Shown one piece after another: positions 5,783-54,815 of a stretch of 59,722 nucleotides of DNA. The stretch comes from a virus. The translations under genes and the position numbers were made by a program. The notes beneath the pieces were generated by a model that searched no databases, was not told where the DNA came from, and was given only the letters and a program-made list of their open reading frames with translations. Numbering within the stretch: the stretch's first letter is position 1; the number at the start of each line of letters is the position of its first letter. The stretch spans positions 1-59,722 of IMG/VR virus record IMGVR_UViG_3300021963_000142. One strand, written 5' to 3'.

Positions 5783-8479
5783 ATGCCAATTACCGTCATT
5801 GGACCAGACGATTCGAACTGGTACGTACCCGCAACTGGAACCACAGGCTCAACAGGAGCAACAGGTGGCACTAGTGTAACTGGACCAACAGGTCCCGCAG
5901 GTGCAGCAGGCGCAACTGGACCAACAGGTCCCGCTGGAGCTGTTGGCCCTACTGGTGCTGGAGCAACTGGAGCAACTGGAGCAACTGGTCCTCGTGGTTT
6001 TTCTGGTTTACAAGGTAATGCTGGTGCAACAGGTCCAACTGGTGCACAGGGTATTTCAGGTTTGCAAGGACCAACAGGTGCAACAGGAGCCGCTGGTCAA
6101 GCAGTAACAATCAAAGGCGAGTACGCTAACTTAACAGCGCTTCAAACAGCAGTCCCAGTCGGTCAACCTGGTGATGCTTATCTTCTTGCTAATGGAAACC
6201 TTTGTGTTTGGAATCCCCAAACATCTTCATGGCAAAATGTAGGTAACCTAGAAGGCCCCACTGGTGCAGCGGGTCCAACTGGTTCAACAGGACCTACTGG
6301 TGTTGCTGGTCCTACAGGACCACAAGGTACACAAGGTGTTTCTGGTATTGCAGGTGCAACAGGTGCTACTGGCGCTGTTGGCCCAACAGGTGCACGAGGT
6401 GACACTGGTCCTCAAGGTGCTCAAGGTTTCTCTGGTTTAATAGGTCCAACTGGTTCTACTGGTGCAACAGGACCATCTGTAACAGGTCCACAGGGTCCTG
6501 GATATAGTGGAGTGACCTCTTCTTCCGCAGTAACTATTACTGGCGGAAATAAAGTATTTACTTTAAACACAACTAATCACGCATTTGTTACTGGACAACG
6601 AGCAAGAATTATTGCGACAGCAACTACTAATACTTGGATGGAAGGTGTTATATCTGTTGCTGGAACTAGCTTAACAATTGCTGTTGATGCGCTAGACGGT
6701 GCAATTGGAACTCCATATAGTTCTTGGGTTCTTGGATTAACAGGTAACTTTGGTGACATTGGTGCAACTGGTCCATTAGGTCCAACAGGTGCTACTGGCG
6801 CTACTGGCGCAGCATCAACTGTTGTCGGTCCTACAGGTCCTACAGGTATTTCTGGTGGTATCACATTTGTTATTACTGCAAATGGAACTACAAACTATGT
6901 AATCAATGGATTATCAAATCCAACTCTTACTGTTATCCGCGGTATTCGTTATCGCTTTGACGTGTCGTCTGCGGGTCAACCATTCTTTATTCAAACAACT
7001 GCTGGTGCATATAGCCCAGGTAACCTTTACACAAATGGTGTAACAGGAAATGGAACTGCAAGCGGAAGCATTGTTTGGGATATCCCATTTGATGGTCCAT
7101 CAACTCTTTACTATGCATCACAAAACAGTGCTAACTTAATTGGAACAATTAATGTAACAGCCGCTGGTCCAGTTGGAGCAACAGGTCCTACAGGAGCAAC
7201 AGGAGCAGCATCTACAGTTGCTGGTCCTACAGGAGCAGTTGGTGCTACTGGCCCTACTGGTGCCGCTGGTGCTGTTGGTGCTACAGGTCCAACAGGTTCT
7301 GCGGGTACTGCAGGTCTTCCAGGAGCTATTGGTCCAACTGGTGCACAGGGTCCACAAGGTATTCAAGGTGTTGCTGGAGCGGCTGGCGCTGTTGGCGCAA
7401 CTGGCGTAGCTGGCCCTACTGGTGCAACTGGTAACACTGGTCCTCAGGGTACTGGCGTTGTTATTGTTGGTTACTACGATTCTTATGCGGCGTTGACTTC
7501 CGCACATCCATTTGGTGCAGCAGGTGATGGTTACCTAGTTAATGGTTACCTATACATCTGGGCTGGTTATGCGTGGATTAACGCTGGTTATATTCAAGGT
7601 CCAACTGGTCCAACAGGTTCACAAGGTGCAGTTGGCCCAACTGGTTCTCAAGGTATTCAAGGACCAACTGGTGCACAAGGTTCACAAGGTATTCAAGGTC
7701 TTGTAGGTGCTACTGGTGCGCTTGGACCAACAGGTCCGCAAGGTGCACTTGGACCTACAGGTGCTCAAGGTATCACTGGTCCAACATCAACAGTCCCAGG
7801 ACCAACTGGACCTACTGGTCAAACAGGTGCGGGTTTATCTCTCAAAGGTTCTTACAATTCATATGCGGAACTTCTTGCTGCACGACCATCTGGAAACGCA
7901 ACAGGTGATGGCTATCTAGTTCTTGGTCAACTGTATGTATGGCAAGGAACTGCATGGGTTAACGCTGGAAATATTGTTGGACCAACTGGTGCTACAGGTT
8001 CCATCGGTTTAACTGGTGCGACAGGCGCTACAGGTGCTCAGGGTATTCAAGGTGTAACAGGTCCGACTGGTAATACTGGTCCACAACCATTTACAGTTAT
8101 TGGAACATGGCAAAGTGGTATTGCCTATGGAGTTGGACAAGCAGTTTTCTATGACACCCCAACTTTAAAGGGTACATATGTAAGAATTAATTCACAATCA
8201 ACAGCGGGAATTAATCCGCTTGGAGATGTTGGAAACTGGATTCCACTTGTTGCTGCGGCAATCGGACCTACAGGTCCAACAGGTGCTCAAGGTTTAACAG
8301 GTTTGCAAGGACCTACAGGTGTTACAGGTCCAACAGGTGTTACAGGTCCAACAGGAAATCAAGGTTTACTAGGTCCAACAGGCCCTACAGGCATTACACT
8401 ATTAAACGTAGATGCTGGCAGTCCAACAAGCAATTATGGTGGAACTGACACTATCGATAGCGGAGGAGTTAACGGTTAA
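5783..8479 (+). CDS. Collagen-like tail or neck fibre
   Basis: An 898-residue fibre made of long runs of Gly-X-Y triplets, mostly GPT, GAT, GPQ and GIQ, which form collagen-type trimers in phage fibres. The triplet runs are interrupted by globular units. A ~50-residue domain occurs three times (about residues 108-155, 558-605 and 685-733; consensus GxYxSYxxL...GDGYLVxGxLYVW). Two beta domains lie at about 240-320 and 360-460. A unit near 770-826 resembles chitin-binding CBM5/12 modules ([17 protein letters not shown]). The Y position is very often Thr. It overlaps the next fibre gene by one base. Likely role: host adsorption or a whisker-like collar fibre. Confidence 0.85.
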
Positions 8480-37890: not shown

Positions 37891-38298
37891 GTGAAAAACG
37901 GGGATATTAGTAATGAGCTTCCAAAACGTTACCTCATTGCTACGGATATATTTTTAGAAGTAAATATAACTGTAAAGAAAATTGCTAAAATCTTTCCAGT
38001 ACCAAAAGTCGACAAAAAGTTTAGAAGAGACATTTTAAGCTTTCTATATTTGTTTACTACTAAAGCTGGAGTAACCCTAGAGGTTGTTTCATTTGATTTA
38101 TCAGATGATGAGCTATCAAAGGTTATGGATACACTTGACAACATGGGTACTAATCCGTTTAGATACTTTTCATCATACGAGTCGGTCAATCATTTGGTTT
38201 CAGAACTTCCCTACAGGCCCGAGGTTCTTGGAGTTGTTGATGTAGACTCTAGGCTACTTCGATACGGGCACTGGGGGAAGGACTTCAAAGGTTTATGA
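37891..38298 (+). CDS. HAD-like protein, unknown
   Basis: A 135-residue protein starting at GTG with no good ribosome site. Strand-like segments LIATDIFLEVNI near the start, VTLEVVSFDLSDDELSKVMD in the middle, and EVLGVVDVDSRLLRYG near the end suggest a small Rossmann/HAD-like fold, but the full catalytic set of HAD phosphatases is not visible. It is placed between SWIM and DnaB genes and overlaps DnaB by ATGA. A related-looking protein is coded at 58906-59364. Confidence 0.5.
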   Translation: MKNGDISNELPKRYLIATDIFLEVNITVKKIAKIFPVPKVDKKFRRDILSFLYLFTTKAGVTLEVVSFDLSDDELSKVMDTLDNMGTNPFRYFSSYESVNHLVSELPYRPEVLGVVDVDSRLLRYGHWGKDFKGL

Positions 38299-39527
38299 AC
38301 AACGAAAGTAAATTATTAAGTAAAGTCTTACATGACCGTGATGTCGCTCCCCTATTTGATAGAGGCGTACAAGACACTTGGTTTGTAGACCCTACTAACA
38401 AACGTATCTGGGAGTTTACTCGCCAGCATTTTTTTAATTATGCAGAGGTACCGAGCCTTGATGTCATAAAAGAAAACTTCCCCAACTATGTACCAGCAGC
38501 TGTATCAGACTCTGTTGAGTACTTAATTGATGCAGTTGTTGCTACTCGTAGAAAAGCCAACACTATTGGGATGGTGCAAAGCGCTATCAGTGCTTTGGAA
38601 AAAGAACAAAACCATGAGCAAGCTATTCTTAATATTCAAAGCGGTTTAATAAAGTTAGAAGAAGACGGACTAAGTAAGACTAACGATTTAGATTTAACAT
38701 CAGAAGCTACCAAGCGTTTTGATGAGTATGAGTGGCGCAAGAACAACCCAGGGTTACTTGGAGTTCCAACTGGTTTTCCAACAATTGATATAGCAACAGG
38801 TGGATTGCAGAATGGTCAGTTGATTGTTATTGTTGCTCCACCTAAAACTGGTAAGTCAACCCTTGCTTTGCAGATTGCACAGAACGTTCACATGACTGAT
38901 AAGAAAGTAATGTTTCAGTCATTTGAGATGAGCAACCATGAACAGCTCACTCGTTACGATGCTCAAAAAGCTCGCGTATCACATAACCGATTGATTAATG
39001 GAAAGCTTACCCCCGAAGAAGAGACTCGATACAAGAGAGTGCTTCAAGGAATTGAAGGCATGCGTGAAAGATTCTGGTTAGTAGATTCTGCTGCTGGTTC
39101 TACAGTTACAGGTATCACAAGTAAGATTCAAGTACTGCACCCTGATGTTGTTTTTATTGACGGTACTTATCTCATGATTGATGAGCAGTCGGGCGAGGCT
39201 AATACCCCGCAGGCAATTACTAACATCACTCGTTCTTTAAAACGTATGGCACAGAAGTTTAAAGTTCCTGTTGTTATTTCTACTCAGGCTTTAAATTGGA
39301 AAATGAAAAAAGGGCAACTAACCGCAGACTCTATTGGTTACTCATCTTCTTTCCATCAAGACGCCGATGTTATCTTTGGTCTTCAAAGAATTGATGACGC
39401 GATTGATGACATGCGTATGTTAAAGATTCTTGACTCCCGTAACTCAGGACGTTCAGAGGTTGCCCTTAATTGGGATTGGAACACTGGACAATTCCGTGAG
39501 ATGGAAGGCGATGATTGGCAAGTATGA
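38295..39527 (+). CDS. dnaB: Replicative DNA helicase, DnaB-like
   Basis: A 410-residue RecA-fold hexameric helicase. An N-terminal helical domain (1-~130) precedes GVPTGFPTIDIATGGLQNGQ and the Walker A PPKTGKST near 182-189. Walker B is DVVFIDGTYLMI near 285-295, and later come VPVVISTQALNW and QDADVIFGLQRI, typical of DnaB motifs H3 and H4. It unwinds DNA ahead of the phage polymerase and would be loaded by the DnaC-like protein. It ends with an ATGA overlap with the primase gene. Confidence 0.92.
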   Translation: MNNESKLLSKVLHDRDVAPLFDRGVQDTWFVDPTNKRIWEFTRQHFFNYAEVPSLDVIKENFPNYVPAAVSDSVEYLIDAVVATRRKANTIGMVQSAISALEKEQNHEQAILNIQSGLIKLEEDGLSKTNDLDLTSEATKRFDEYEWRKNNPGLLGVPTGFPTIDIATGGLQNGQLIVIVAPPKTGKSTLALQIAQNVHMTDKKVMFQSFEMSNHEQLTRYDAQKARVSHNRLINGKLTPEEETRYKRVLQGIEGMRERFWLVDSAAGSTVTGITSKIQVLHPDVVFIDGTYLMIDEQSGEANTPQAITNITRSLKRMAQKFKVPVVISTQALNWKMKKGQLTADSIGYSSSFHQDADVIFGLQRIDDAIDDMRMLKILDSRNSGRSEVALNWDWNTGQFREMEGDDWQV

Positions 39528-40453
39528 CTGTAGATGAAATGCAGGATACGTTATACAGATTAGGTGTTGATGTTGTATCTGTTCGTGGGTATGAGATTCA
39601 ATGCTACTGTCCTGTTCATAAATTAATAAAAGGAGTTGAAGATAGGAACCCGTCTTTTTGGATTAATGCTGACACGGGTGCAAACCTTTGTTTCTCATGC
39701 GGTCACAAAGGTGCACTAACAACTTTAGTTTCTATGATTCAAGGCTCTGACTATGATGCCGCAAAAGCTTTTATTACTTCAGGAGATGTTAACTTAACTA
39801 ATTCATTACAAAAAGCTTTAAAACCTAAAGAAATATTTGAACAGCCTACATTTATTACAGAATCAATGCTTTCTGCATTTGTTAGACCTCCAGTTGATGC
39901 GCTTAAATCACGTGGCCTTACCGTTTCCGCTGCAGTCAAACATGATTTATTGTGGGATGAACGACGTTCTAATTGGATAACCGTTATTAGAGAGCCTTTA
40001 ACAGGTAAGTTGTTGGGCTGGCAAGAGAAGGGACACCGAGCACGGTATTTTAAAAATCAACCCGTTGGTGTTCAAAAAAGCACAACTCTTTTTGGCTACA
40101 ACCAATACAAAGGGGGGACAATGATTGTTGTTGAATCCCCATTAGATGTTGTCAGGTTAGATTCCGTAGGCATCACAGGGGGCGTAGCAACCTATGGTTC
40201 TGCCGTGTCAATGGTTCAGTTTAATTTAATACGTGGGGCTGAAAAAGTAGTTTTTGCAATGGACAACGATGACTCAGGTAAAGGTTCTTCTTTAAGTCTA
40301 TTAACCTTAGCAACTGAGATGGGGTTAGAGTGTTGGTTTTTTAATTATACCTCTACAGGTATGAAAGATGTTGGCGGTATGAGCAAAGTTGAGATAGAGT
40401 GGGGTTTAGATAACGCTAAGCATTGCGTTCATGGAGAGAAGGCGCTTTCATGA
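39524..40453 (+). CDS. DNA primase, DnaG-like
   Basis: A 309-residue primase. The ATG at 39524 overlaps the helicase stop (ATGA). A CHC2-type zinc finger is formed by CYCPVHK near residues 27-33 and CFSCGHKG near 57-64. The Toprim domain has VVESPLDVV near 202-210 with the catalytic Glu, and FAMDNDDSGKGSS near 245-257 with the DxD. The polypeptide is compact because it lacks the C-terminal helicase-binding domain of bacterial DnaG. It makes RNA primers for the family A polymerase. Confidence 0.88.
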   Translation: MTVDEMQDTLYRLGVDVVSVRGYEIQCYCPVHKLIKGVEDRNPSFWINADTGANLCFSCGHKGALTTLVSMIQGSDYDAAKAFITSGDVNLTNSLQKALKPKEIFEQPTFITESMLSAFVRPPVDALKSRGLTVSAAVKHDLLWDERRSNWITVIREPLTGKLLGWQEKGHRARYFKNQPVGVQKSTTLFGYNQYKGGTMIVVESPLDVVRLDSVGITGGVATYGSAVSMVQFNLIRGAEKVVFAMDNDDSGKGSSLSLLTLATEMGLECWFFNYTSTGMKDVGGMSKVEIEWGLDNAKHCVHGEKALS

Positions 40454-42814: not shown

Positions 42815-42887
42815 TGCCCTATAGCTCAGCTGGCAGAGCGAGCGACTGTTAATCGCTAGGTCCCTGGTTCGAGCCCAGGTGGGGCAG
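42815..42887 (+). tRNA. tRNA-Asn (GTT)
   Basis: A cloverleaf of 73 nt: acceptor TGCCCTA/TGGGGCA (42815-42821 / 42880-42886) with a T-G pair, anticodon stem AGCGA/TCGCT (42841-42845 / 42853-42857), loop CTGTTAA with anticodon GTT at 42848-42850, and GGTTCGAG in the T arm. Discriminator G. CCA is not encoded. Confidence 0.92.
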
Positions 42888-42891
42888 CAAT

Positions 42892-42967
42892 GCGGTTGTA
42901 GCTCAGTTGGTAGAGCGGCACCTTGCCAAGGTGCAGGTCGCGAGTTCGAGCCTCGTCAACCGCTCCA
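42892..42967 (+). tRNA. tRNA-Gly (GCC)
   Basis: Acceptor GCGGTTG/CAACCGC (42892-42898 / 42957-42963), anticodon stem GCACC/GGTGC, loop TTGCCAA with anticodon GCC at 42925-42927, T arm GTTCGAG. The CCA end is encoded at 42965-42967, unlike in the two neighbouring tRNAs. Only four bases separate it from tRNA-Asn. Confidence 0.93.
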
Positions 42968-42968
42968 T

Positions 42969-43040
42969 TCTCCCTTCGTCTAATTGGCAAGACTGCGGAT
43001 TCTGGTTCCGCCTATCGAGGTTCGAGTCCTTGGGGGAGAG
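42969..43040 (+). tRNA. tRNA-Gln (CTG)
   Basis: A 72-nt tRNA one base after tRNA-Gly. Acceptor TCTCCCT/GGGGAGA (T-G at the base), D stem GTCT/AGAC, anticodon stem GCGGA/TCCGC, loop TTCTGGT with anticodon CTG at 43002-43004, T stem CGAGG/CCTTG. Discriminator G; CCA not encoded. It reads CAG codons. Confidence 0.88.
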
Positions 43041-43070
43041 CTTTACACCTAACGATAATTGTTGGACAGG

Positions 43071-45049: not shown

Positions 45050-47023
45050 TTGAACATTATTACGACTAAAAAACAATTAGACGAGATGGTTGCTTACTAT
45101 CTCCAACAAGATTCTTTTGCTTTTGATTGTGAAACTGTAGGACCACGTCGTGGTGTGACAGTTGTTAATGAAGTTATGTGGCTTAGCTTTGCCACCCACG
45201 GGCGTGGAGATGTTATCCCAATGGGGCATCCACACGGGGAGTTTGAGTCTGAGTCATTTCCATTAACTGGTCAAGGAGAGAAGAGAGTTGCCGCTGGTTT
45301 AGACGCCAGACCAAGTGACTACTCTAGAGATGCAAAAAAATCTACTAGAGTATTTGGTCCAGCCCCCTCTCAAATGTTTCCTGGAGAGGTCTTTAAGGCT
45401 TTAGAACCTTTGTTTTTTAACGATGAGATATTGATTATTGGTCACAACTTAGTCTTTGACCTTACCTCTGTTGCTAAATATTTAAACGGTCGTATACCCT
45501 CTGGTCCATACTTTGACACCATGGTTGGTTCATTTATCTATGACAACCGTAATAAAAACAAGTGCGGTTTAGATGACTGCTTGCAGCGAGAACTTGGATT
45601 TGAAATGACCAAAGGTGTAGGTGCTCAGGTAGAGATTCACCCTTTTAGTGAGGTAGCTAAGTATGCATACTTAGATGCTAAATACACATTTCTTTTATAC
45701 AAAGCCGTGCTTCCAAAGATTGAAGCAGCAGAACTTACAAAGATTATGAAACTAGAGATGGACGTTCTTAAAGTTCTTTGTCATATGAAACTTGCTGGTG
45801 CGCCAATCGATATGTCTGCTTTAAAACAGCTTCACGAACAACTAGAAAAAGATATCGAGGCTGCTCGCTCAGAGATTTATAAAGTTGCTGGCAGAGTTTT
45901 TAATATAAATTCAAATCAAGAGAAGCAATACCTTTTGTATTCAAAAAAGTCAGAAGGAGGTCGAGGTCTAAAACCTAAAATTCTTACTGGCAAAGGTATT
46001 AAAAAAGATATGGAAGGCAAAGAGCTTGAGTACATGGACTACTCTGTATCCGCGGAAGCACTAGAGCCACACAGAGATAAAGACCCATTAGTTAAAGCGT
46101 TACTAGAATATTCAGATTTAAATAAGTTGCTTACTACTTACGTTATTCCTTACCTAGGTGGGGATGTAACTAGAACTGTTGGTGGAAAGTCTAAAACAGA
46201 ATACAAAGATAGCCTTCTTGTCAACGGTCGTATTCATGCAGACTTTATTCAACATGGTGCAGAGACTGGCAGATTCTCTAGCCGTAATCCAAATTTGCAG
46301 AACGTACCCAATCCAGCTACCGCACACGGCAAAGCTATTCGTAACTTGTTCTACGCACCTGAGGGTTTTAAATTAGTTGTTGCTGACTACTCACAGATTG
46401 AACCTCGCATTATTGCGTCTATGTCTAAAGACCCTATTATGATGAAAAACTACATGGATGGTGGGGACATCTACACCACTGTAGGAGACACCATGGGTGT
46501 TAATCGTCAGGCTGGTAAGGTACTTGTATTGGCTATGGCTTATGGGGTTGGTCCCGATAAGATTGCTCGTTCTATAGGATGCTCAGTTACAGAGGCTAAA
46601 ACCTTACTTACAAATTTTGCAGCAAAGTTTCCATCGGTAAACATCTATCGAATGAAGGTTGTTGCTCAGACTAAGGCTAAGAGATATGTCACCACCCTTA
46701 TGGGTAGAAAACGTTATCTACCAGAGATTGCATCTAGAGACTTTGGTGTTAGGGCTGGTGCTGAGCGTCAGGCTTTCAACACGCGTATCCAAGGGTCAGC
46801 AGCAGACATCATGAAACTTGCTATGATTAGGGCTCATGATTTGGTACCACCAGAAGCCAAGATTCTTCTAACAGTTCATGACGAACTTGTAACCCTTACC
46901 CCAGATTCTTTAGCAAAGAAGACGGCAGAAAGTATTCGTGAAGCGATGGAAGGCATAAAGGTTTTAGACATACCTTTGATTGCTGACGTAAAAACCGTAC
47001 AGAGATGGGGAGAAGCTAAGTGA
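45050..47023 (+). CDS. polA: DNA polymerase, family A (PolA)
   Basis: A 657-residue polymerase starting at TTG. A 3'-5' exonuclease domain is shown by FAFDCETVG near 24-32 (Exo I), GHNLVFDLTS near 137-146 (Exo II) and YAYLDAKYT near 205-213 (Exo III). The polymerase motifs are VVADYSQIEPRIIAS (A), RQAGKVLVLAMAYG starting at residue 486 (B, O-helix) and LLTVHDELV (C). The residue equivalent to E. coli Phe762 is Leu (residue 494). There is no 5' nuclease domain. It is the phage replicative polymerase. Confidence 0.95.
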   Translation: MNIITTKKQLDEMVAYYLQQDSFAFDCETVGPRRGVTVVNEVMWLSFATHGRGDVIPMGHPHGEFESESFPLTGQGEKRVAAGLDARPSDYSRDAKKSTRVFGPAPSQMFPGEVFKALEPLFFNDEILIIGHNLVFDLTSVAKYLNGRIPSGPYFDTMVGSFIYDNRNKNKCGLDDCLQRELGFEMTKGVGAQVEIHPFSEVAKYAYLDAKYTFLLYKAVLPKIEAAELTKIMKLEMDVLKVLCHMKLAGAPIDMSALKQLHEQLEKDIEAARSEIYKVAGRVFNINSNQEKQYLLYSKKSEGGRGLKPKILTGKGIKKDMEGKELEYMDYSVSAEALEPHRDKDPLVKALLEYSDLNKLLTTYVIPYLGGDVTRTVGGKSKTEYKDSLLVNGRIHADFIQHGAETGRFSSRNPNLQNVPNPATAHGKAIRNLFYAPEGFKLVVADYSQIEPRIIASMSKDPIMMKNYMDGGDIYTTVGDTMGVNRQAGKVLVLAMAYGVGPDKIARSIGCSVTEAKTLLTNFAAKFPSVNIYRMKVVAQTKAKRYVTTLMGRKRYLPEIASRDFGVRAGAERQAFNTRIQGSAADIMKLAMIRAHDLVPPEAKILLTVHDELVTLTPDSLAKKTAESIREAMEGIKVLDIPLIADVKTVQRWGEAK

Positions 47024-47493: not shown

Positions 47494-47839
47494 CAACTGG
47501 TGGTCAAATAAATTGGGGACAACTCCTCAACCGCAGCAGCCAAACATGCCGCAACAACAGCCTGTTTATCAGCAGCCGACGCAACAACCACAGTCTTACC
47601 CAACTTCACAACAGACTGTTCCAATGACACCGCGTTGTCCAGGCTGTAATAGTGGTAACTATGGCGGTACAGCTGAGTCACGTCCACGATGTTATGACTG
47701 TGGATACCCTATTCAACAATCAGGTTCTGGTGCAGGCACTGGAATTGTTGGTCAAGGTGGTGGCGGTGGGCCAGCAACCCCAGCTACACAAGTACCAACT
47801 GGTGGGTTTAATCCAACAACAATCATAGGACACATTTAA
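47486..47839 (+). CDS. Pro/Gln-rich zinc-ribbon protein
   Basis: A 117-residue protein starting at the third of three overlapping ATG codons (47480, 47483, 47486). Residues ~12-50 are almost only Pro and Gln and probably unstructured. CPGC near 52-55 and CYDC near 70-73 form a zinc ribbon. A Gly/Pro/Thr-rich tail follows. It lies between polymerase and RecA genes and is coupled to RecA by TAATG. Function unknown. Confidence 0.6.
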   Translation: MSSNWWSNKLGTTPQPQQPNMPQQQPVYQQPTQQPQSYPTSQQTVPMTPRCPGCNSGNYGGTAESRPRCYDCGYPIQQSGSGAGTGIVGQGGGGGPATPATQVPTGGFNPTTIIGHI

Positions 47840-48891
47840 TGAATGCTGAATTAACTAAAATATTAACAAAAATTAATAAAAAATACGGTGACAATACCGT
47901 AGTTCTTGGTTCAGACATTAGAGATGATGTTCTGAGTCGTGTCACCACTGGCTCTATTAGTTTAGATGTTGCCCTTGGTGGTGGATGGCCCGTTAATCAA
48001 TGGCATGAAATTATTGGTGAAGCAAGTAATGGTAAGACTGCAATTGCACTTAAAACTATTGCTGCAAACCAAAAGCGCGACCCAGAGTTTACAACGGTAT
48101 GGATTGCTGCAGAGCAATGGGTACCTGCTTACGCTGAGTTGTGCGGAGTGGATACAAAAAGAGTTTACGTAGTTTCTACAAACATTATGGAGGAAGCATA
48201 TGAAGCGGTTATTGAAATTGTGGAAAGCAAAGCTGTGGATTGCGTCGTTATTGATAGCCTTCCTGCCTTGGTTCCTAGCTCAGAAGATGAGAAACAAATG
48301 GAAGAATCAACCGTAGGTCGGGGCGCCCTTCTTACTAACAAGTTTTTTCGCAAGGTAGGCATGGCATCTAAGCGTAGCCTTATTGAGTATGAGCGCCCGT
48401 TTATTGGGATTCTAATCAATCAATGGCGTTCAAAGATTGGGGTTATGTATGGAGACCCACGCACTACCCCAGGTGGTTTAGGTAAAGACTATGCGTTCTT
48501 TACTCGTATGGAAGTACGACGCGATGAATGGATTGAGTCTGGAACTGGTCAGGAAAAACGTCGCATTGGTCAGACAATTAAAGCACGTGTTATTAAAAAT
48601 AAATCAGCCCCACCATCCCAGGTTGCTGTTTTTGATTTTTACTTCTCAGAAGGTGGCGAAGTTGCTGCTGGAGAGATTGATTTTGGCAAGGAAATACTAG
48701 CTATTGGTATTCTAAATAAGGTTATTATCAGGGCTGGGGCTTACTACCGCTATGGTGGTAGGCAGTGGCAGGGTTCTGATGCTATGCTTAGCTCCATACG
48801 CGAGGAGATTGACCTTAAAGAGACTTTAGAACGAGATGTTCTAGATTCAATTAAGGCGGGTTCAAAGTTCGTTGCTGACGATGAAATCTAA
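47839..48891 (+). CDS. recA: RecA-like recombinase
   Basis: A 350-residue RecA-family protein. Typical segments: SRVTTGSISLDVALGGGWPV near 34-53, a Walker A variant GEASNGKT near 60-67, AAEQWVPAYAELCGVD near 92-107, Walker B VDCVVIDSLPALVP near 133-146, and the L2-flanking TPGGLGKDYAFFTRMEVRR. It drives strand exchange for recombination-dependent replication and repair. Two nuclease genes and a RuvC-like resolvase follow. Confidence 0.92.
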   Translation: MNAELTKILTKINKKYGDNTVVLGSDIRDDVLSRVTTGSISLDVALGGGWPVNQWHEIIGEASNGKTAIALKTIAANQKRDPEFTTVWIAAEQWVPAYAELCGVDTKRVYVVSTNIMEEAYEAVIEIVESKAVDCVVIDSLPALVPSSEDEKQMEESTVGRGALLTNKFFRKVGMASKRSLIEYERPFIGILINQWRSKIGVMYGDPRTTPGGLGKDYAFFTRMEVRRDEWIESGTGQEKRRIGQTIKARVIKNKSAPPSQVAVFDFYFSEGGEVAAGEIDFGKEILAIGILNKVIIRAGAYYRYGGRQWQGSDAMLSSIREEIDLKETLERDVLDSIKAGSKFVADDEI

Positions 48892-49225
48892 AGGACAACG
48901 AGAATCTAAGAAGCATGAGGACCGATTAGCAAAAGCAATTGGCGGACAGCGTTCAGCTGGAAGCGGTGCGTTTTGGAGTCGGAAAGGCGATGTCCGTTCA
49001 CAAGATTTGCTCGTAGAGCATAAGTGGACAGGCAAAGCTTCCGTATCCGTTAAGGCTGCGGTTCTAGAAAAGATTGTCAGAGAAGCAATTTTTGACAGTC
49101 GGATGCCTGTCCTCGGTTTTAGTCTCAACAATGAGAACTACGTATTACTAACTGAAGATGACTTTCTGGAATTGCGCCAGAATATTCAGGAGTGTACTTG
49201 TTCTCAGAAGACGTCGGACACCTAG
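48881..49225 (+). CDS. PD-(D/E)XK nuclease, resolvase-like
   Basis: A 114-residue protein; ATG at 48881 overlaps the end of recA by 11 bases. After KHEDRLAKAIGGQRSAGSGA comes a KGDVRSQDLLVEHKW segment, whose D...E-x-K spacing is that of the PD-(D/E)XK nuclease fold. The small size and an LEKIVREAI helix after it resemble Hjc/VRR-type nucleases and small phage Holliday-junction-cleaving enzymes. It probably works with RecA in recombination. Confidence 0.72.
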   Translation: MKSKGQRESKKHEDRLAKAIGGQRSAGSGAFWSRKGDVRSQDLLVEHKWTGKASVSVKAAVLEKIVREAIFDSRMPVLGFSLNNENYVLLTEDDFLELRQNIQECTCSQKTSDT

Positions 49226-49518
49226 AAGGTTGGCGACATAAAGCAAAGTGCCGTGGCATGGACACAGAAATGTTTTTTCCTCCACGAGATAAAGCAAAGT
49301 ATAAAAAGATAGCAGACGTTTCCAAAGCTGTGTGCTTTGGTAAAGACGGTCTGCCAGAATGTCCTGTGCGTAAAGAGTGTTTATTGTATGCCAATGCTAT
49401 GGATGAGCAACATGGAATTTGGGGTGGCATGAGTCACCGAGAAAGAAATGCATTAAAAAGAAAAGCAAATAAAGCTGGTAAATCATTTGGGGAGTGGGTA
49501 ACTACCAAGAAAGTGTGA
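49198..49518 (+). CDS. WhiB-family iron-sulfur regulator
   Basis: A ~106-residue WhiB-like protein. I favour the TTG at 49198, five bases after AGGAG; a GTG at 49192 is the alternative. Hallmarks are AKCRGMDTEMFFPP, the cysteine set completed by AVCFGKDGLPECPVRKEC, the HGIWGGMSHRER turn and a basic Lys/Arg tail for DNA binding. Four cysteines should hold a [4Fe-4S] cluster. The second and third are separated by eight residues instead of the usual two. Phage WhiB proteins can reprogram host division or transcription. It indicates an actinobacterial host. Confidence 0.9.
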   Translation: MFSEDVGHLEGWRHKAKCRGMDTEMFFPPRDKAKYKKIADVSKAVCFGKDGLPECPVRKECLLYANAMDEQHGIWGGMSHRERNALKRKANKAGKSFGEWVTTKKV

Positions 49519-49530: not shown

Positions 49531-50379
49531 ATGGCAATCACTCAAAAACCAAGCGGCGCTTTAAAGAAACTGGTAGATGTGGGTAAAAAACAATCAAGAG
49601 TTTTAGGCTCTGTAGAACGATATGTAATTTCAAAACCTCAAGACCAGAGTCGTAGAACAGATGTTCTACACCCCTCTGAAATGGTTAAAAAAGACTGGTG
49701 TTATAGAGCATCTTACTTTCAATTGCAAGGCCGCAACCCAATTCAAAAAAGAACTAGCAGCCTGCGTATGGAATCTGTCTTTGCTGAAGGCCATTACATT
49801 CACGCTAAGTGGCAAAAGTGGTTTCAAGAGATGGGCGTGCTTAATGGTAAGTGGTACTGCATTGAGTGCGACGAATACTTTTGGGGCGGTTCTGATTGTC
49901 ACGATGGACCGTTGCAATACAACGAAGTACCTTTGTTTTATGAACCATTAAGAATTTCAGGTCATGCAGATGGTTGGCTTACTAGTTTAGGTGACCCTTT
50001 AATGTTAGAGGTTAAGTCAATTGGTATTGGAACAATTAGATGGGAAGCTCCAGACCTTGTAAGAGAACACAAGGGAGATATGGAAGCTATGTGGGCAGAG
50101 ATTAAAGCTCCGTTTATGAATCATATTACTCAAGTTCAAATGTACATGAAGTTAGCAGAGCTTATTGAACTACCAGAGCATCCACAAGAAGCAGTGCTTA
50201 TCTATGAAAACAAAGCCAACCAAGAGGCTAGAGAATTTGTAGTTCCTAAGAGTGACTTTGCAACAGCTGGTCTATTTGACGCTGCTGCTATGATTATGGA
50301 AGCACTTGATAAAAAGACTGCACCAGCTTGCAACGTTGCAAACGGTGGTTGTTCAAAATGTAAGGGGTATGATGAGTAA
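49531..50379 (+). CDS. Cas4/RecB-like exonuclease
   Basis: A 282-residue PD-(D/E)XK nuclease. Motifs: HPSEMVKKDWCYRASYFQLQ near 47-66, GHADGWL near 146-152 with the catalytic Asp, LMLEVKSIG near 159-167 (E-x-K), and ITQVQMYMKLAEL near 201-213 (QxxxY). Cys residues at ~58 and a C-terminal cluster (CNVANGGCSKCKG) are placed as in Cas4-type enzymes that carry an iron-sulfur cluster. It probably resects DNA ends for recombination. It overlaps the next gene. Confidence 0.82.
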   Translation: MAITQKPSGALKKLVDVGKKQSRVLGSVERYVISKPQDQSRRTDVLHPSEMVKKDWCYRASYFQLQGRNPIQKRTSSLRMESVFAEGHYIHAKWQKWFQEMGVLNGKWYCIECDEYFWGGSDCHDGPLQYNEVPLFYEPLRISGHADGWLTSLGDPLMLEVKSIGIGTIRWEAPDLVREHKGDMEAMWAEIKAPFMNHITQVQMYMKLAELIELPEHPQEAVLIYENKANQEAREFVVPKSDFATAGLFDAAAMIMEALDKKTAPACNVANGGCSKCKGYDE

Positions 50380-50866
50380 CATTATTTCTACAGGAATTAG
50401 TGGCAGAGTACTAGCGCAACTTCAATCTCAGGGGTTGCCAATCAAAGTTAATTTAAACATTGACTTGCCTGATTTTCCATCGGATATTACTGAAGTAGCT
50501 GACCAAGAGTTAATGATGATGGCAAGTCGTTATATTGAGAACATTAACTTCCTTCGAACCCAGGTTGCATGTGCTGGGTTAGCGGAGCTAGAGGCTGAGA
50601 ACACCTACGAGACCGCGGTCAATCGGGGTATGCTTTCTAAATCAACTGGTAAAAGTACAGAAAAGCCAGTCCTTCTACGTGCATTAGTACATGAGGAACC
50701 AGAGATTCAAGCCCTTCAAGATGCCAAACAATATGCCCATGCTTACAAGGTTCTTCTAGAAAATAACTTAGAAAACATTGAGCGTTACTACTCATTGACC
50801 AGCCGAGAACTTACTCGTCGTAACTCAGCCGCTCGTAATATTATGAACAATCGGTTTATCCCCTAA
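50372..50866 (+). CDS. Hypothetical recombination-region protein
   Basis: A 164-residue helical protein. The ATG at 50372 is chosen because AAGGGG lies at a usable distance; the adjacent ATG at 50369 is too close. The N-terminus has VNLNIDLPDFPSDITEVADQ, and the C-terminal part is a long helical stretch (LLENNLENIERYYSLTSREL) that could be a coiled coil. It is sandwiched between Cas4-like and RuvC-like genes and may be their accessory factor. No family recognised. Confidence 0.6.
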   Translation: MSNIISTGISGRVLAQLQSQGLPIKVNLNIDLPDFPSDITEVADQELMMMASRYIENINFLRTQVACAGLAELEAENTYETAVNRGMLSKSTGKSTEKPVLLRALVHEEPEIQALQDAKQYAHAYKVLLENNLENIERYYSLTSRELTRRNSAARNIMNNRFIP

Positions 50867-51421
50867 ATGAGCTCTGTGAAAAAATTTGATGGAGGCTTAA
50901 CTTTTGAAAGCAGTAGCCCTGTATACGCTGGCATAGACCAGTCATATAGTGGATTTGCTGTAACCCTTTTTGATAAAGATTCCCTTAAGTATCAAACCAC
51001 AGTGTATAAATCTGAGAAGCGTGGGATTGAAAGACTTAGGGATATTCAAGCGCACTTAATGGATGCTTTAGTTGAGTGGGATATTGCTGACGTTGCCATG
51101 GAGGGATATGCCTTTAGTTCACAGATGGCTAACATGCTTGGTGAGCTCGGGGGAATGGTAAAGCTAGTTCTATTAGATTTCGGTATTTACCCCTTGATAG
51201 TTCCGCCTACTAACCTAAAGAAATACGTAACTGGTAAAGGTCAAGGTGTCCCAAAGAGCCAAATGCTTCTTTACGTTTATAAGAAGTGGGATGCAGAATT
51301 TACTGACGATAACGCTGCGGATTCGTACGCTTTAGCTAGGTTGGTGTCTGGAACCCATACTTTGGCATATGAAAAAGAGGTGTACGATAAGCTACAGGAC
51401 CCAAAGTTTAGAGAGAAATAA
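50867..51421 (+). CDS. RuvC-like Holliday-junction resolvase
   Basis: A 184-residue RNase H-fold nuclease. Catalytic acidic residues are visible in order: YAGIDQSYSGFAV (Asp near 24), VAMEGYAFSS (Glu near 79), and DDNAADSYALARL near 144-156 (two Asp). PPTNLKKYVTGKGQGVPKSQ between them is the usual RuvC DNA-binding segment. It would cut branched DNA before packaging. It starts directly after the preceding stop. Confidence 0.88.
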   Translation: MSSVKKFDGGLTFESSSPVYAGIDQSYSGFAVTLFDKDSLKYQTTVYKSEKRGIERLRDIQAHLMDALVEWDIADVAMEGYAFSSQMANMLGELGGMVKLVLLDFGIYPLIVPPTNLKKYVTGKGQGVPKSQMLLYVYKKWDAEFTDDNAADSYALARLVSGTHTLAYEKEVYDKLQDPKFREK

Positions 51422-51593: not shown

Positions 51594-51814
51594 GTAAGAA
51601 AAAACAAGAAGATGACCTAAGAGAGTACGGCTACATGACTCCTGGTGAGTTTGTAGACAATTTAGTTCCAGGTTTAAAAGAGTATTTAAAACATAATTGG
51701 GGTTGTAAACCAGACGAGCTATACCACCCAGAGGATTTGTTTTCTAATGCAGAGATTTATATTGAGGTAGCAAGACACATAGCGGGGGACTTCATTGTTA
51801 GACCTAAGAGATAA
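51590..51814 (+). CDS. Small hypothetical protein
   Basis: A 74-residue protein with an ATGA overlap; the in-frame upstream start at 51575 adds only vector-like basic residues and is less likely. The sequence YGYMTPGEFVDNLVPGLKEY and YHPEDLFSNAEIYIEVARHI suggests a compact helical fold. No family recognised; it travels between two zinc ribbons. Confidence 0.6.
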   Translation: MSKKKQEDDLREYGYMTPGEFVDNLVPGLKEYLKHNWGCKPDELYHPEDLFSNAEIYIEVARHIAGDFIVRPKR

Positions 51815-51974
51815 AGACCAGCCTTTAGAGGTGTGTATTTGTGGGTCCACATTGTGGAATGTTAAAGCCATGTTTGAAGAGGGTGAAATAAGCCTTTATA
51901 TGCTAGATATGGAATGCCATCTATGTGGCGCTCTAGCTACAGCTCCAACCCCCGCTGATTACAGAACGGTTTAG
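51795..51974 (+). CDS. Small zinc-ribbon protein
   Basis: A 59-residue protein starting at TTG, six bases after GGGGGA, overlapping the previous gene by 20 bases. It has CICG near 14-17 and CHLCGA near 40-45, a zinc ribbon with hydrophobic strands between. It is just under the length at which small genes are usually called. Its stop is followed by a 73-base gap holding a promoter candidate. Confidence 0.65.
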   Translation: MLDLRDKDQPLEVCICGSTLWNVKAMFEEGEISLYMLDMECHLCGALATAPTPADYRTV

Positions 51975-52047: not shown

Positions 52048-52329
52048 ATGACCGAGCAAAATAATGAAGAGCAAATCCTACGCGTAGGAGCAGGCTCTAA
52101 TCCACAAGCAGTAGCATCTGCTATTGCACACAGCATTTATGAGTCCCGTACTTGTAAAGTTCGCGCCGTTGGCGCAGGCGCTGTAAACCAAGCAGTAAAA
52201 GCCATCGCAATTGCACGTGGTTACACAGCCCCAAGAGGCCTAGACCTTACCTGCATCCCTGGTTTCTCCAGTATTGAAAGCCATGATGGTCAGATTTCTG
52301 CCATTGTCTTTGATATTAAGGCTAGTTAA
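52048..52329 (+). CDS. spoVS: SpoVS family protein (Alba-like fold)
   Basis: A 93-residue protein closely matching stage V sporulation protein S over nearly its whole length: LRVGAGSNPQAVASAIAHSI, then KVRAVGAGAVNQAVKAIAIA, RGYTAPRGLDLTCIPGFSSI and a final ISAIVFDIKAS strand. The SNP-x-AVA, GAGA-x-NQAVKA and CIP motifs are diagnostic. SpoVS has an Alba-type nucleic-acid-binding fold and affects sporulation and division in Firmicutes. Here it stands alone between two short unknown genes. Confidence 0.93.
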   Translation: MTEQNNEEQILRVGAGSNPQAVASAIAHSIYESRTCKVRAVGAGAVNQAVKAIAIARGYTAPRGLDLTCIPGFSSIESHDGQISAIVFDIKAS

Positions 52330-52389: not shown

Positions 52390-52722
52390 ATGAAAAAAGA
52401 TACAAAGAAGAACCCAGCACCGATTGCTCCAACATCTGCCGAGCCATCAAATGCTGCTGGAGCAAAGCCACAAGTTGCTAAGCCTTTAAAAGGAACACTT
52501 GTGAAGAAGACTGGCAATGCTAAGGGTGGAACAGACCCATACAAGCAAGCTAAGCCATCACGTACTAAGATTACTGCTACAAGTGGAGCAAGATACGGTA
52601 TCCGTGTTAAGTTCCAGAAATCCACAGCTCCAGAAGCTGGCGCCACACAAGGCAATGGACGAATCCTTTCTTCAGCGGTAAAGCGCTCGGCCCCCAACTT
52701 TAAAGATGGTATGGCTGAGTAG
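52390..52722 (+). CDS. Basic low-complexity protein
   Basis: A 110-residue protein with an AAAGGAAA ribosome site. Residues 1-60 are rich in Lys, Pro, Ala and Thr (KKDTKKNPAPIAPTSAEPSN) and likely unstructured; residues ~62-110 include ITATSGARYGIRVKFQKSTA and SAVKRSAPNFKDGMAE. High Lys content and disorder suggest nucleic-acid binding. No family recognised. It is followed by a strong terminator. Confidence 0.55.
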   Translation: MKKDTKKNPAPIAPTSAEPSNAAGAKPQVAKPLKGTLVKKTGNAKGGTDPYKQAKPSRTKITATSGARYGIRVKFQKSTAPEAGATQGNGRILSSAVKRSAPNFKDGMAE

Positions 52723-52738
52723 TTACAACTAAATAGCG

Positions 52739-52770
52739 CAAAGCCCCTCCATGCGAGGGGCTTTGGCATT
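52739..52770 (+). terminator. Rho-independent terminator
   Basis: CAAAGCCCCTC (52739-52749) pairs with GAGGGGCTTTG (52755-52765) around a 5-nt loop. A short AT-rich run follows. Confidence 0.85.
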
Positions 52771-52885: not shown

Positions 52886-53425
52886 ATGGCTTCAGGCTAC
52901 CCAATGGGCTCACCACATGAAAGAAATCAGTGGCCCCATAACCCAAAGCAAATACCAGCAGGAACTCAACGGCTCATTGATGGCTATAAATTAGCTGCAG
53001 AACGTTCCGTAGACCCTTTTCAACTTCTACACAACATGTTAGACCCATGGACTGTTGGGTTTGACCGTCAATTAACTTTATTTAAAGAGTTAGAGGACGT
53101 ACGCATTAAATCTAATTATCCTCCCTACAACATCAAGACTTTGCCTGATGATAAGGCTGAAATTGAGCTTGCAATTGCAGGGTTTAAGAAGGATGATGTA
53201 ACCATTACCTACAAGGAAAATGTCCTAACCGTTGAAGGAAATAGGGGAGAAGATGACGGGGAGTATGCCTACAAAGGCATTGCTGCTCGTAACTTTACCC
53301 AGAAGTTTGCTATTGCTGATGACGTTGTTGTTGTTGGCGCTAAGCTTACCGATGGCTTCCTTACTATTTCTTTAGAGCGCATTGTTCCTGAGGAAAAGAA
53401 GGCTAAAAAAATAACGATTAAATAA
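52886..53425 (+). CDS. Hsp20 small heat-shock protein
   Basis: A 179-residue alpha-crystallin-type chaperone. Residues ~70-170 are the alpha-crystallin domain: PYNIKTLPDDKAEIELAIAG, FKKDDVTITYKENVLTVEGN, the RNFTQKFAIADDVVV strand and GFLTISLERIVPEEKKA near the end. It holds unfolding proteins. It has its own promoter with a palindrome and a strong terminator, a stand-alone unit. Similar genes occur in cyanophages and other aquatic phages. Confidence 0.93.
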   Translation: MASGYPMGSPHERNQWPHNPKQIPAGTQRLIDGYKLAAERSVDPFQLLHNMLDPWTVGFDRQLTLFKELEDVRIKSNYPPYNIKTLPDDKAEIELAIAGFKKDDVTITYKENVLTVEGNRGEDDGEYAYKGIAARNFTQKFAIADDVVVVGAKLTDGFLTISLERIVPEEKKAKKITIK

Positions 53426-53538: not shown

Positions 53539-53802
53539 GTGAAATCAATTGATGATTTATTAACTGAGTTTTCAAGTAACCCCGTTAATACAAGGCGTAA
53601 AGGCTATTGCACAACAGCAAAATGGCTTGATAGACAAGATTCAAAGTTAAAAGAAAAACTTGTTAAAACTCTAAGTGATGAAACACTAGGGCTGGATATA
53701 AAAAACTTCATGAAGGCATTGGTAACAAATGGGTATGAACTACCAATGAAAGAGACAGCTTTTCGCGACCATTTCAAAGGACGATGCACATGTCGAAAGT
53801 AA
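53539..53802 (+). CDS. Small hypothetical protein
   Basis: An 87-residue protein starting at GTG, five bases after AGAGGAA; in-frame codons upstream run through the terminator and are unlikely. It is mostly helical (DDLLTEFSSNPVNTRRKGYC; DIKNFMKALVTNGYELPMKE) and ends FKGRCTCRK with a CxC. It overlaps the phosphoesterase gene. The TRRKGYCTTAKWL segment could bind nucleic acid; no family recognised. Confidence 0.6.
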   Translation: MKSIDDLLTEFSSNPVNTRRKGYCTTAKWLDRQDSKLKEKLVKTLSDETLGLDIKNFMKALVTNGYELPMKETAFRDHFKGRCTCRK

Positions 53803-54815
53803 CAATTTCAGAGTTATTAGACCAAGCGCTTGTAGAGGCAAACCCACTAGCTGTAGGTGATTGGTCTTGGCCTCCAATTCAGCCAGCAAAGCCTACTATT
53901 ATTAAGCCAGCAACTTATAAAGAACGCAAAAATAAAAAAGATGGACGATTAATTATGTTCGTCCCAGACCCACAGATTGGGTACCGTAAATATGAAGACG
54001 GCACGTTAGACCCTTTTCACGACGAAACCGCAATTGAGATTCATTTTCAATTGCTTGCTTATATGGAAGAAAAATATGGCGTGGATGAGATTATCCATTT
54101 AGGTGATTATCTAGACCTGCCAACAATGGGCAAGTACGCACAAGAAGAGATGTTTGCACACACCGTACAGCCAGCACTTGATTACGGTCATAACCTATTA
54201 GCTAAACAACGAGCTACATGCCCAACTGCAAAGATTACTTTAATTGAAGGTAACCACGATTGTCGTATGCAGAAGTATGTAACAATGAACGCTATGGCTT
54301 CTAAAGGAATTAAACGCGCAGGCGCAACCCCAGAAGAATGGCCTGTTATGTCTATTCCTTTCCTACTTCGCTTAGATGAAATTAATGTCGATTACGTAGG
54401 TGGTTACCCAGCAGGTGAGTATTGGATTACTCCACACTTACGTGCTGTACACGGAACTACTGTCCGCTCTGGTGGGTCAACCGCTTCAGCGTATGTAAAC
54501 AAGAACCCACACGTATCAACAGTGTTTGGTCACGCTCACCGTCAAGAGATGCAGTACAAAACTGTGGCTAATGGCGATGGCCCTATCCGTTCAGTGTCAG
54601 CGTCACCAGGATGCTTATGCCGTGTAGATGGTGCCGTTCCTTCATATGGTTCTGGTTTAAATGACCAAGGACGTCCACTTAAGCACTGGGAAGATTGGCA
54701 ACAAGGGATTATGATTGGATGGGTAAAAGACGACGGCAGTTTCACTCTACAACCTATTCATATTATGGATGGTTGGGCTATTTACGAGGGTATTGAGTTT
54801 AAAGCGACCGTCTAA
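53790..54815 (+). CDS. Calcineurin-like metallophosphoesterase
   Basis: A 341-residue phosphoesterase. The ATG at 53790 gives the better distance from AAAGGA than the one at 53784. The five metal-binding blocks appear in order: FVPDPQIGYRK near 51-61, IIHLGDYLDLP near 101-111, IEGNHDCR near 151-158, AVHGTTVRSGG near 214-224, and VFGHAHRQEM near 247-256. The fold is shared by nucleases (SbcD/Mre11) and phosphodiesterases; the substrate cannot be told from sequence. Confidence 0.88.
   Translation: MSKVTISELLDQALVEANPLAVGDWSWPPIQPAKPTIIKPATYKERKNKKDGRLIMFVPDPQIGYRKYEDGTLDPFHDETAIEIHFQLLAYMEEKYGVDEIIHLGDYLDLPTMGKYAQEEMFAHTVQPALDYGHNLLAKQRATCPTAKITLIEGNHDCRMQKYVTMNAMASKGIKRAGATPEEWPVMSIPFLLRLDEINVDYVGGYPAGEYWITPHLRAVHGTTVRSGGSTASAYVNKNPHVSTVFGHAHRQEMQYKTVANGDGPIRSVSASPGCLCRVDGAVPSYGSGLNDQGRPLKHWEDWQQGIMIGWVKDDGSFTLQPIHIMDGWAIYEGIEFKATV

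Follow-up and report, generated by a model that had tools for sequence, protein, structure and literature searches.

In studies of soil and marine viromes, viral spoVS has been listed as an auxiliary sporulation gene and taken as evidence of viruses manipulating host sporulation (PMC6172770, PMC8940887). A member of the same protein family is encoded in the 59,722-nt stretch of DNA analysed here in its full length (the window), a 59.7-kb virus record with a GC content of 42.8%, raising the question of whether the gene serves spore formation, as read in those papers, or another process. An earlier note on the same DNA had treated a SpoVS of viral origin as surprising, which does not hold, as annotations of such genes already existed for BRock and for Lysinibacillus and Stenotrophomonas phages, besides the reports from viromes.

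From PHROGs matches to portal, major head protein, tail sheath and baseplate wedge, the window phage can be deduced to be a myovirus. WhiB factors mark actinophages (PMC10202952), and the assignment to an actinophage genome made in the earlier note is borne out by a WhiB gene together with the GC content. The features of the window considered in the following are:

5783-8479, 898-aa ORF dominated by collagen-like G-x-T/G-P-T repeats, probably encoding a tail or fibre protein
38295..39527, plus strand, DnaB-like replicative helicase
39515..40453, plus strand, DNA primase
42815-43041, cluster of three tRNA genes (Asn, Gly, Gln)
45050..47023, plus strand, PolA-type DNA polymerase
47839..48891, plus strand, UvsX/RecA-like recombinase (PHROG 97)
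48881..49225, plus strand, Holliday junction resolvase (PHROG 2002)
49192..49518, plus strand, WhiB-family transcription factor, the actinophage marker (Pfam, E 9.4e-19)
49531..50379, plus strand, Cas4-type exonuclease
50372..50866, plus strand, candidate UvsY-like recombination mediator (predicted structure)
50867..51421, plus strand, RuvC-like Holliday junction resolvase
51795..51974, plus strand, small Cys-rich ORF just 5' of spoVS, zinc-ribbon-like by eye, start codon uncertain
52048..52329, plus strand, SpoVS-family protein of 93 aa with Alba-like fold and Arg39 in place of the cellular Gln (ORF, Pfam, PHROG and PDB matches, AlphaFold2)
52390..52722, plus strand, 110-aa basic low-complexity protein with a net charge of +16, directly 3' of spoVS
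52738..52768, plus strand, strong terminator-like hairpin without long T run, just 3' of the basic protein gene
52886-53425, HSP20 small heat-shock protein
53784-54815, metallophosphoesterase

The SpoVS reading frame starts with an ATG at 52048, with a ribosome-binding-like GAGG motif a short way 5' of it, and its stop codon ends at 52329. Residues 9-90 of the product match the Pfam family SpoVS (PF04232) with an E-value of 7.4e-29 over profile positions 1-82 of 83, at a score of 99.8 bits against a curated cut-off of 24, which bears out the match along the whole length claimed before and confirms a SpoVS family member with full-length homology. Further matches were obtained with PHROG 35646 'sporulation protein' (E 3.2e-24) and with SpoVS from Thermus thermophilus (2eh1, E 5.1e-17). 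Like the Thermus and Bacillus proteins, the phage copy possesses the G-A, N-Q, K and F positions that are invariant across cellular and viral SpoVS. The Alba-like fold, also proposed in the earlier note, was recovered in an AlphaFold2 model with a mean pLDDT of 91.9, for which Foldseek gave TM-scores of 0.87-0.88 to Thermus SpoVS (2ek0, 2eh1) and of 0.59-0.68 to several archaeal Alba proteins at a probability of 1.00; profile search and structure prediction thus both gave the SpoVS/Alba fold. Among the structural matches are the Alba protein Sso10b (1h0x), the RNA-complexed structures 3wbm, 3iab and 6lt7 and the integrative model 9a7h, in which SpoVS is associated with YunD, which we take to be a metallophosphoesterase. 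While the fold is shared with the Alba superfamily (Sso10b, Rpp20/Rpp25), sequence identity amounts to 13-21%, and aligning the SpoVS profile with one Alba sequence in hhalign did not result in a significant match. Binding of nucleic acid by the phage SpoVS is predicted and would fit this evidence, as would the use of the fold on phage or host nucleic acid suggested in the earlier note, and the protein probably dimerises.

The gene lies at the end of a series of recombination genes, and the order UvsX, resolvase, WhiB, Cas4, UvsY-like, RuvC and SpoVS is common to the window and Streptomyces phages. With profiles built from the lineage of the window, resolvase, WhiB, Cas4, UvsY-like, RuvC and SpoVS genes plus several unnamed ones were recovered in the same order in the Streptomyces phages. 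In BRock, LuckySocke, pSt2308 and GiJojo, SpoVS follows the RuvC-like gene within this colinear region; in Streptomyces Borockvirus, the RuvC-like gene is located immediately 5' of SpoVS. The PHROG 35646 members BRock gp51 and LuckySocke gp174 are direct homologues, showing 46-50% identity and the same neighbourhood.

One of the neighbours, encoded at 50372-50866, has homologues in Streptomyces phages that carry the annotation SSB or hypothetical, the one in LuckySocke being labelled 'SSB protein'. This label was rejected, since the predicted structure (pLDDT 90.1) is a long UvsY-like helical hairpin without OB fold. The top 17 PDB matches of the model are all T4 UvsY chains at a probability of 1.00, with TM-scores of 0.51-0.56 (query) and 0.62-0.72 (target), albeit at modest E-values of 0.017 or worse. 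The assignment as a UvsY-like mediator is therefore regarded as a well-supported lead from modelling. In T4, UvsY acts as a hexameric mediator in the loading of UvsX onto single-stranded DNA. The SpoVS neighbourhood would thus resemble the T4 system in having a UvsX-like recombinase next to a protein modelled like UvsY, although SpoVS, to our knowledge, is not part of the T4 UvsX-UvsY system. A search with the single window protein retrieved near copies alone. Within the isolate-phage collection, the UvsY-like gene was found in eight records, all eight of which also have SpoVS, whereas in 11 Vibrio phages, which have only a distant Cas4 relative, both the UvsY-like gene and SpoVS are absent. 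An alignment of the Bacteroides-type UvsY-like proteins identified one further contig, which carries SpoVS as well.

This Bacteroides-type set comprises Bacteroides phage BS162P1, gut record MT835482 and IMG/VR contig 3300029989_000117, in all of which UvsX, resolvase, Cas4, UvsY-like and SpoVS genes are found in the same order and orientation, whereas WhiB was not detected. In a single-sequence comparison with the whole of BS162P1, 12 of the 71 plus-strand ORFs of the window gave matches, namely portal, major head, sheath, baseplate, helicase, primase and polymerase as well as UvsX, resolvase, UvsY-like, SpoVS and one short unnamed ORF; Cas4 joins these by profile. The idea that merely the recombination cassette is shared was dropped, as the common genes extend to portal, head, sheath, baseplate, helicase and primase. 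Hence, the common structural and replication genes indicate deep common descent of the whole phages, and SpoVS belongs to the small core retained between the window lineage and the Bacteroides-type phages. The lineage is a large myovirus group with hosts in the Actinomycetota and, for one distant branch, in the Bacteroidota.

For establishing how constantly the gene occurs without circularity, loci were fetched with UvsX/RecA and, as a second set, with the Holliday-junction resolvase as anchor instead of SpoVS, retaining as usable those with enough downstream DNA. SpoVS is present in 38/38 RecA-anchored and 39/39 resolvase-anchored usable loci, the two sets overlapping and covering close relatives of the window phage, with RecA identities from about 78% upwards. 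The small Cys-rich ORF is likewise found in all 38 RecA-anchored loci. Unlike SpoVS, genes for HSP20 (25 of the 38 RecA-anchored relatives), FmdB and the metallophosphoesterase (near SpoVS in 24 of the 38) are present in only part of the anchored loci. Among the neighbours in the RecA-anchored loci, SpoVS shows the highest conservation, its median identity being 83.5% compared with 81.1% for RecA itself, 67.0% for Cas4 and 57.8% for the UvsY-like protein. The dN/dS value of 0.078 is close to the 0.077 of RecA, both ratios being rough with dS near saturation, and demonstrates strong purifying selection at the codon level. SpoVS is a core gene of this myovirus lineage with near-universal presence, in contrast to the filing of PHROG 35646 as moron. 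Patchy presence, mobile position and recent host origin, by which a moron would be recognised, were not observed in this lineage, and the position of the gene is fixed. A moron or recent host acquisition was consequently rejected, as SpoVS is universal in loci chosen without it and the tree described below shows a deep viral clade.

The phylogeny including viral copies that the earlier note had proposed was calculated by maximum likelihood from 79 SpoVS proteins and 85 columns (36 lineage, 38 cellular and 5 sporadic phage copies) and gave a separate viral clade. All 36 lineage copies, Streptomyces and Bacteroides types included, are found on one side of a branch supported at 100/100, with the 38 cellular and five sporadic phage copies on the other; the inner forks are poorly supported with 85 columns, and the position given to the long Bacteroides branch inside the clade may be wrong. 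Arg39 occurs in 86/86 distinct lineage copies but in only 1/71 cellular and 0/5 other phage copies. The window protein thus lies outside the cellular radiation, both by its position relative to the 100/100 branch and by lacking Gln39, a residue marking the cellular subfamily rather than being a defining feature of PF04232. Arg39 might be found at the place of Alba Lys40, an equivalence drawn from the non-significant hhalign alignment and the shared fold. Besides, most or all aquatic and Streptomyces copies show Lys instead of Glu at position 37 and Arg instead of Asn/Ser at position 63, whereas the viral proteins lack the basic residues that cellular SpoVS has near positions 31, 83 and 87 and also differ by their recombination-region context. 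The sporadic copies, from Stenotrophomonas phage TS-12, a Lysinibacillus phage, Bacillus phage KLEB27-3 and two gut records, lie among cellular SpoVS, keep Gln or Asp at position 39 and represent separate, later acquisitions. An IMG/VR scan for relatives of the Lysinibacillus phage SpoVS did not find any. Close relatives of the window protein are encoded in at least 584 IMG/VR stretches.

Identity of the window SpoVS to the closest cellular copies is 46-58% (best 80 of at least 525 genome matches). The earlier statement that SpoVS is known mainly from Firmicutes and a few other bacteria proved too narrow, as the close cellular relatives among these best 80 also span Thermotogota, Synergistota, Atribacterota, Dictyoglomota, Chloroflexota and others, including many non-sporulating phyla. 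None of the best 80 of at least 525 matches was labelled Actinomycetota. In Collinsella aerofaciens (Actinomycetota), spoVS is located just 3' of recA-recX-rny on a large replicon; a cellular spoVS is thus present in at least one actinobacterium.

Regarding function, we give an even chance to the phage SpoVS being an Alba-like nucleic-acid-binding accessory of phage replication and recombination. According to this proposal, the virus-specific SpoVS branch would be a core component of the replication/recombination region, and the small protein, probably as a dimer, would bind nucleic acid and coat or bridge phage DNA during recombination-dependent replication, alongside UvsX, the UvsY-like mediator, the Cas4-type exonuclease and the Holliday-junction resolvases. 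A part in UvsX/UvsY-type recombination is suggested mainly by the conserved context; however, a core function outside recombination could explain conservation and position as well, because colinearity in these phages extends over the entire region. Also speaking against the proposal, the window SpoVS lacks a net positive charge (0 overall, compared with a domain median of +2 in its relatives). The experimental evidence on SpoVS links it more closely to cell development. A regulator that steers mRNA stability or translation by binding host or phage RNA with the same fold appears unlikely to us, albeit deserving attention: the Alba superfamily has many RNA binders, with Rpp20/Rpp25, YhbY and IF3-C being examples (PMC11621453), the structural matches include the RNA complexes mentioned above, and ribonuclease Y is encoded near cellular spoVS in 10 of 80 loci and in Collinsella, which suggests RNA rather than DNA. 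The phage copy, however, resides among DNA recombination genes in phages infecting two host phyla, and neither an RNase nor an RNA gene is kept beside it.

A joint action with the neighbouring WhiB factor in host takeover, altering host division or development, would agree with the position of WhiB 2.5 kb 5' of SpoVS and its conservation across the actinophage part of the lineage, with the PHROGs category 'moron, auxiliary metabolic gene and host takeover' and with an effect of SpoVS on septation and sporulation in Bacillus, as far as Resnekov et al. (1995) are cited for it in PMC6172770. The retention of SpoVS in the Bacteroides-type phages, in which no WhiB was detected, and a universal presence, not patchy as for morons, render this role improbable. 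The WhiB of mycobacteriophage TM4 alters host division or development, and apart from the WhiB gene this analysis gave no sign supporting the effect on division considered in the earlier note. The published reading as an auxiliary gene helping the host to form spores, in line with the family name (PMC6172770, PMC8940887), is in our opinion hardly tenable for this lineage, as the viral clade is distinct from the copies of sporulating bacteria and SpoVS occurs in many non-sporulating phyla, too. Above all, the phages in which the gene is fixed include some infecting Bacteroides, a genus without endospore formation, and a sporulation role is unlikely because of this retention. Finally, SpoVS might be an architectural or virion-associated protein that condenses phage DNA before or during packaging together with its basic neighbour. 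The gene for this low-complexity protein adjoins SpoVS in 141 of 148 viral loci and is followed by a comparable hairpin in 135 of the 141 (11/141 in control stretches), and Alba is a chromatin protein. However, detection of the basic neighbour was only weak in Streptomyces phages, and in the Bacteroides-type phages it was not found, leaving condensation a quite improbable function. A promoter scan gave sites no more frequently than expected by chance.

Core status, the viral clade with its diagnostic residue and the UvsY-like neighbour appear to be new, and no prior report of any of these was found in the literature searched, whereas the SpoVS family and its presence in phages were known. With somewhat less than even confidence, we consider the viral SpoVS/Alba-like protein as a standard, previously unrecognised part of the UvsX-UvsY-type machine in very common actinophages, in Streptomyces phages and in gut Bacteroides phages, so that such virome 'sporulation genes' would be misread DNA-transaction proteins. 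If many of them are indeed core replication/recombination proteins of one lineage, the interpretation in terms of sporulation ecology would be wrong for those. As the lineage includes isolated Streptomyces phages, the role of SpoVS in recombination, replication or packaging is amenable to testing in a simple phage system. SpoVS copies are encoded in 13 isolate or gut phage records, six of these being Streptomyces phages, and one further gut record with SpoVS was found when using the Bacteroides-phage protein as query.
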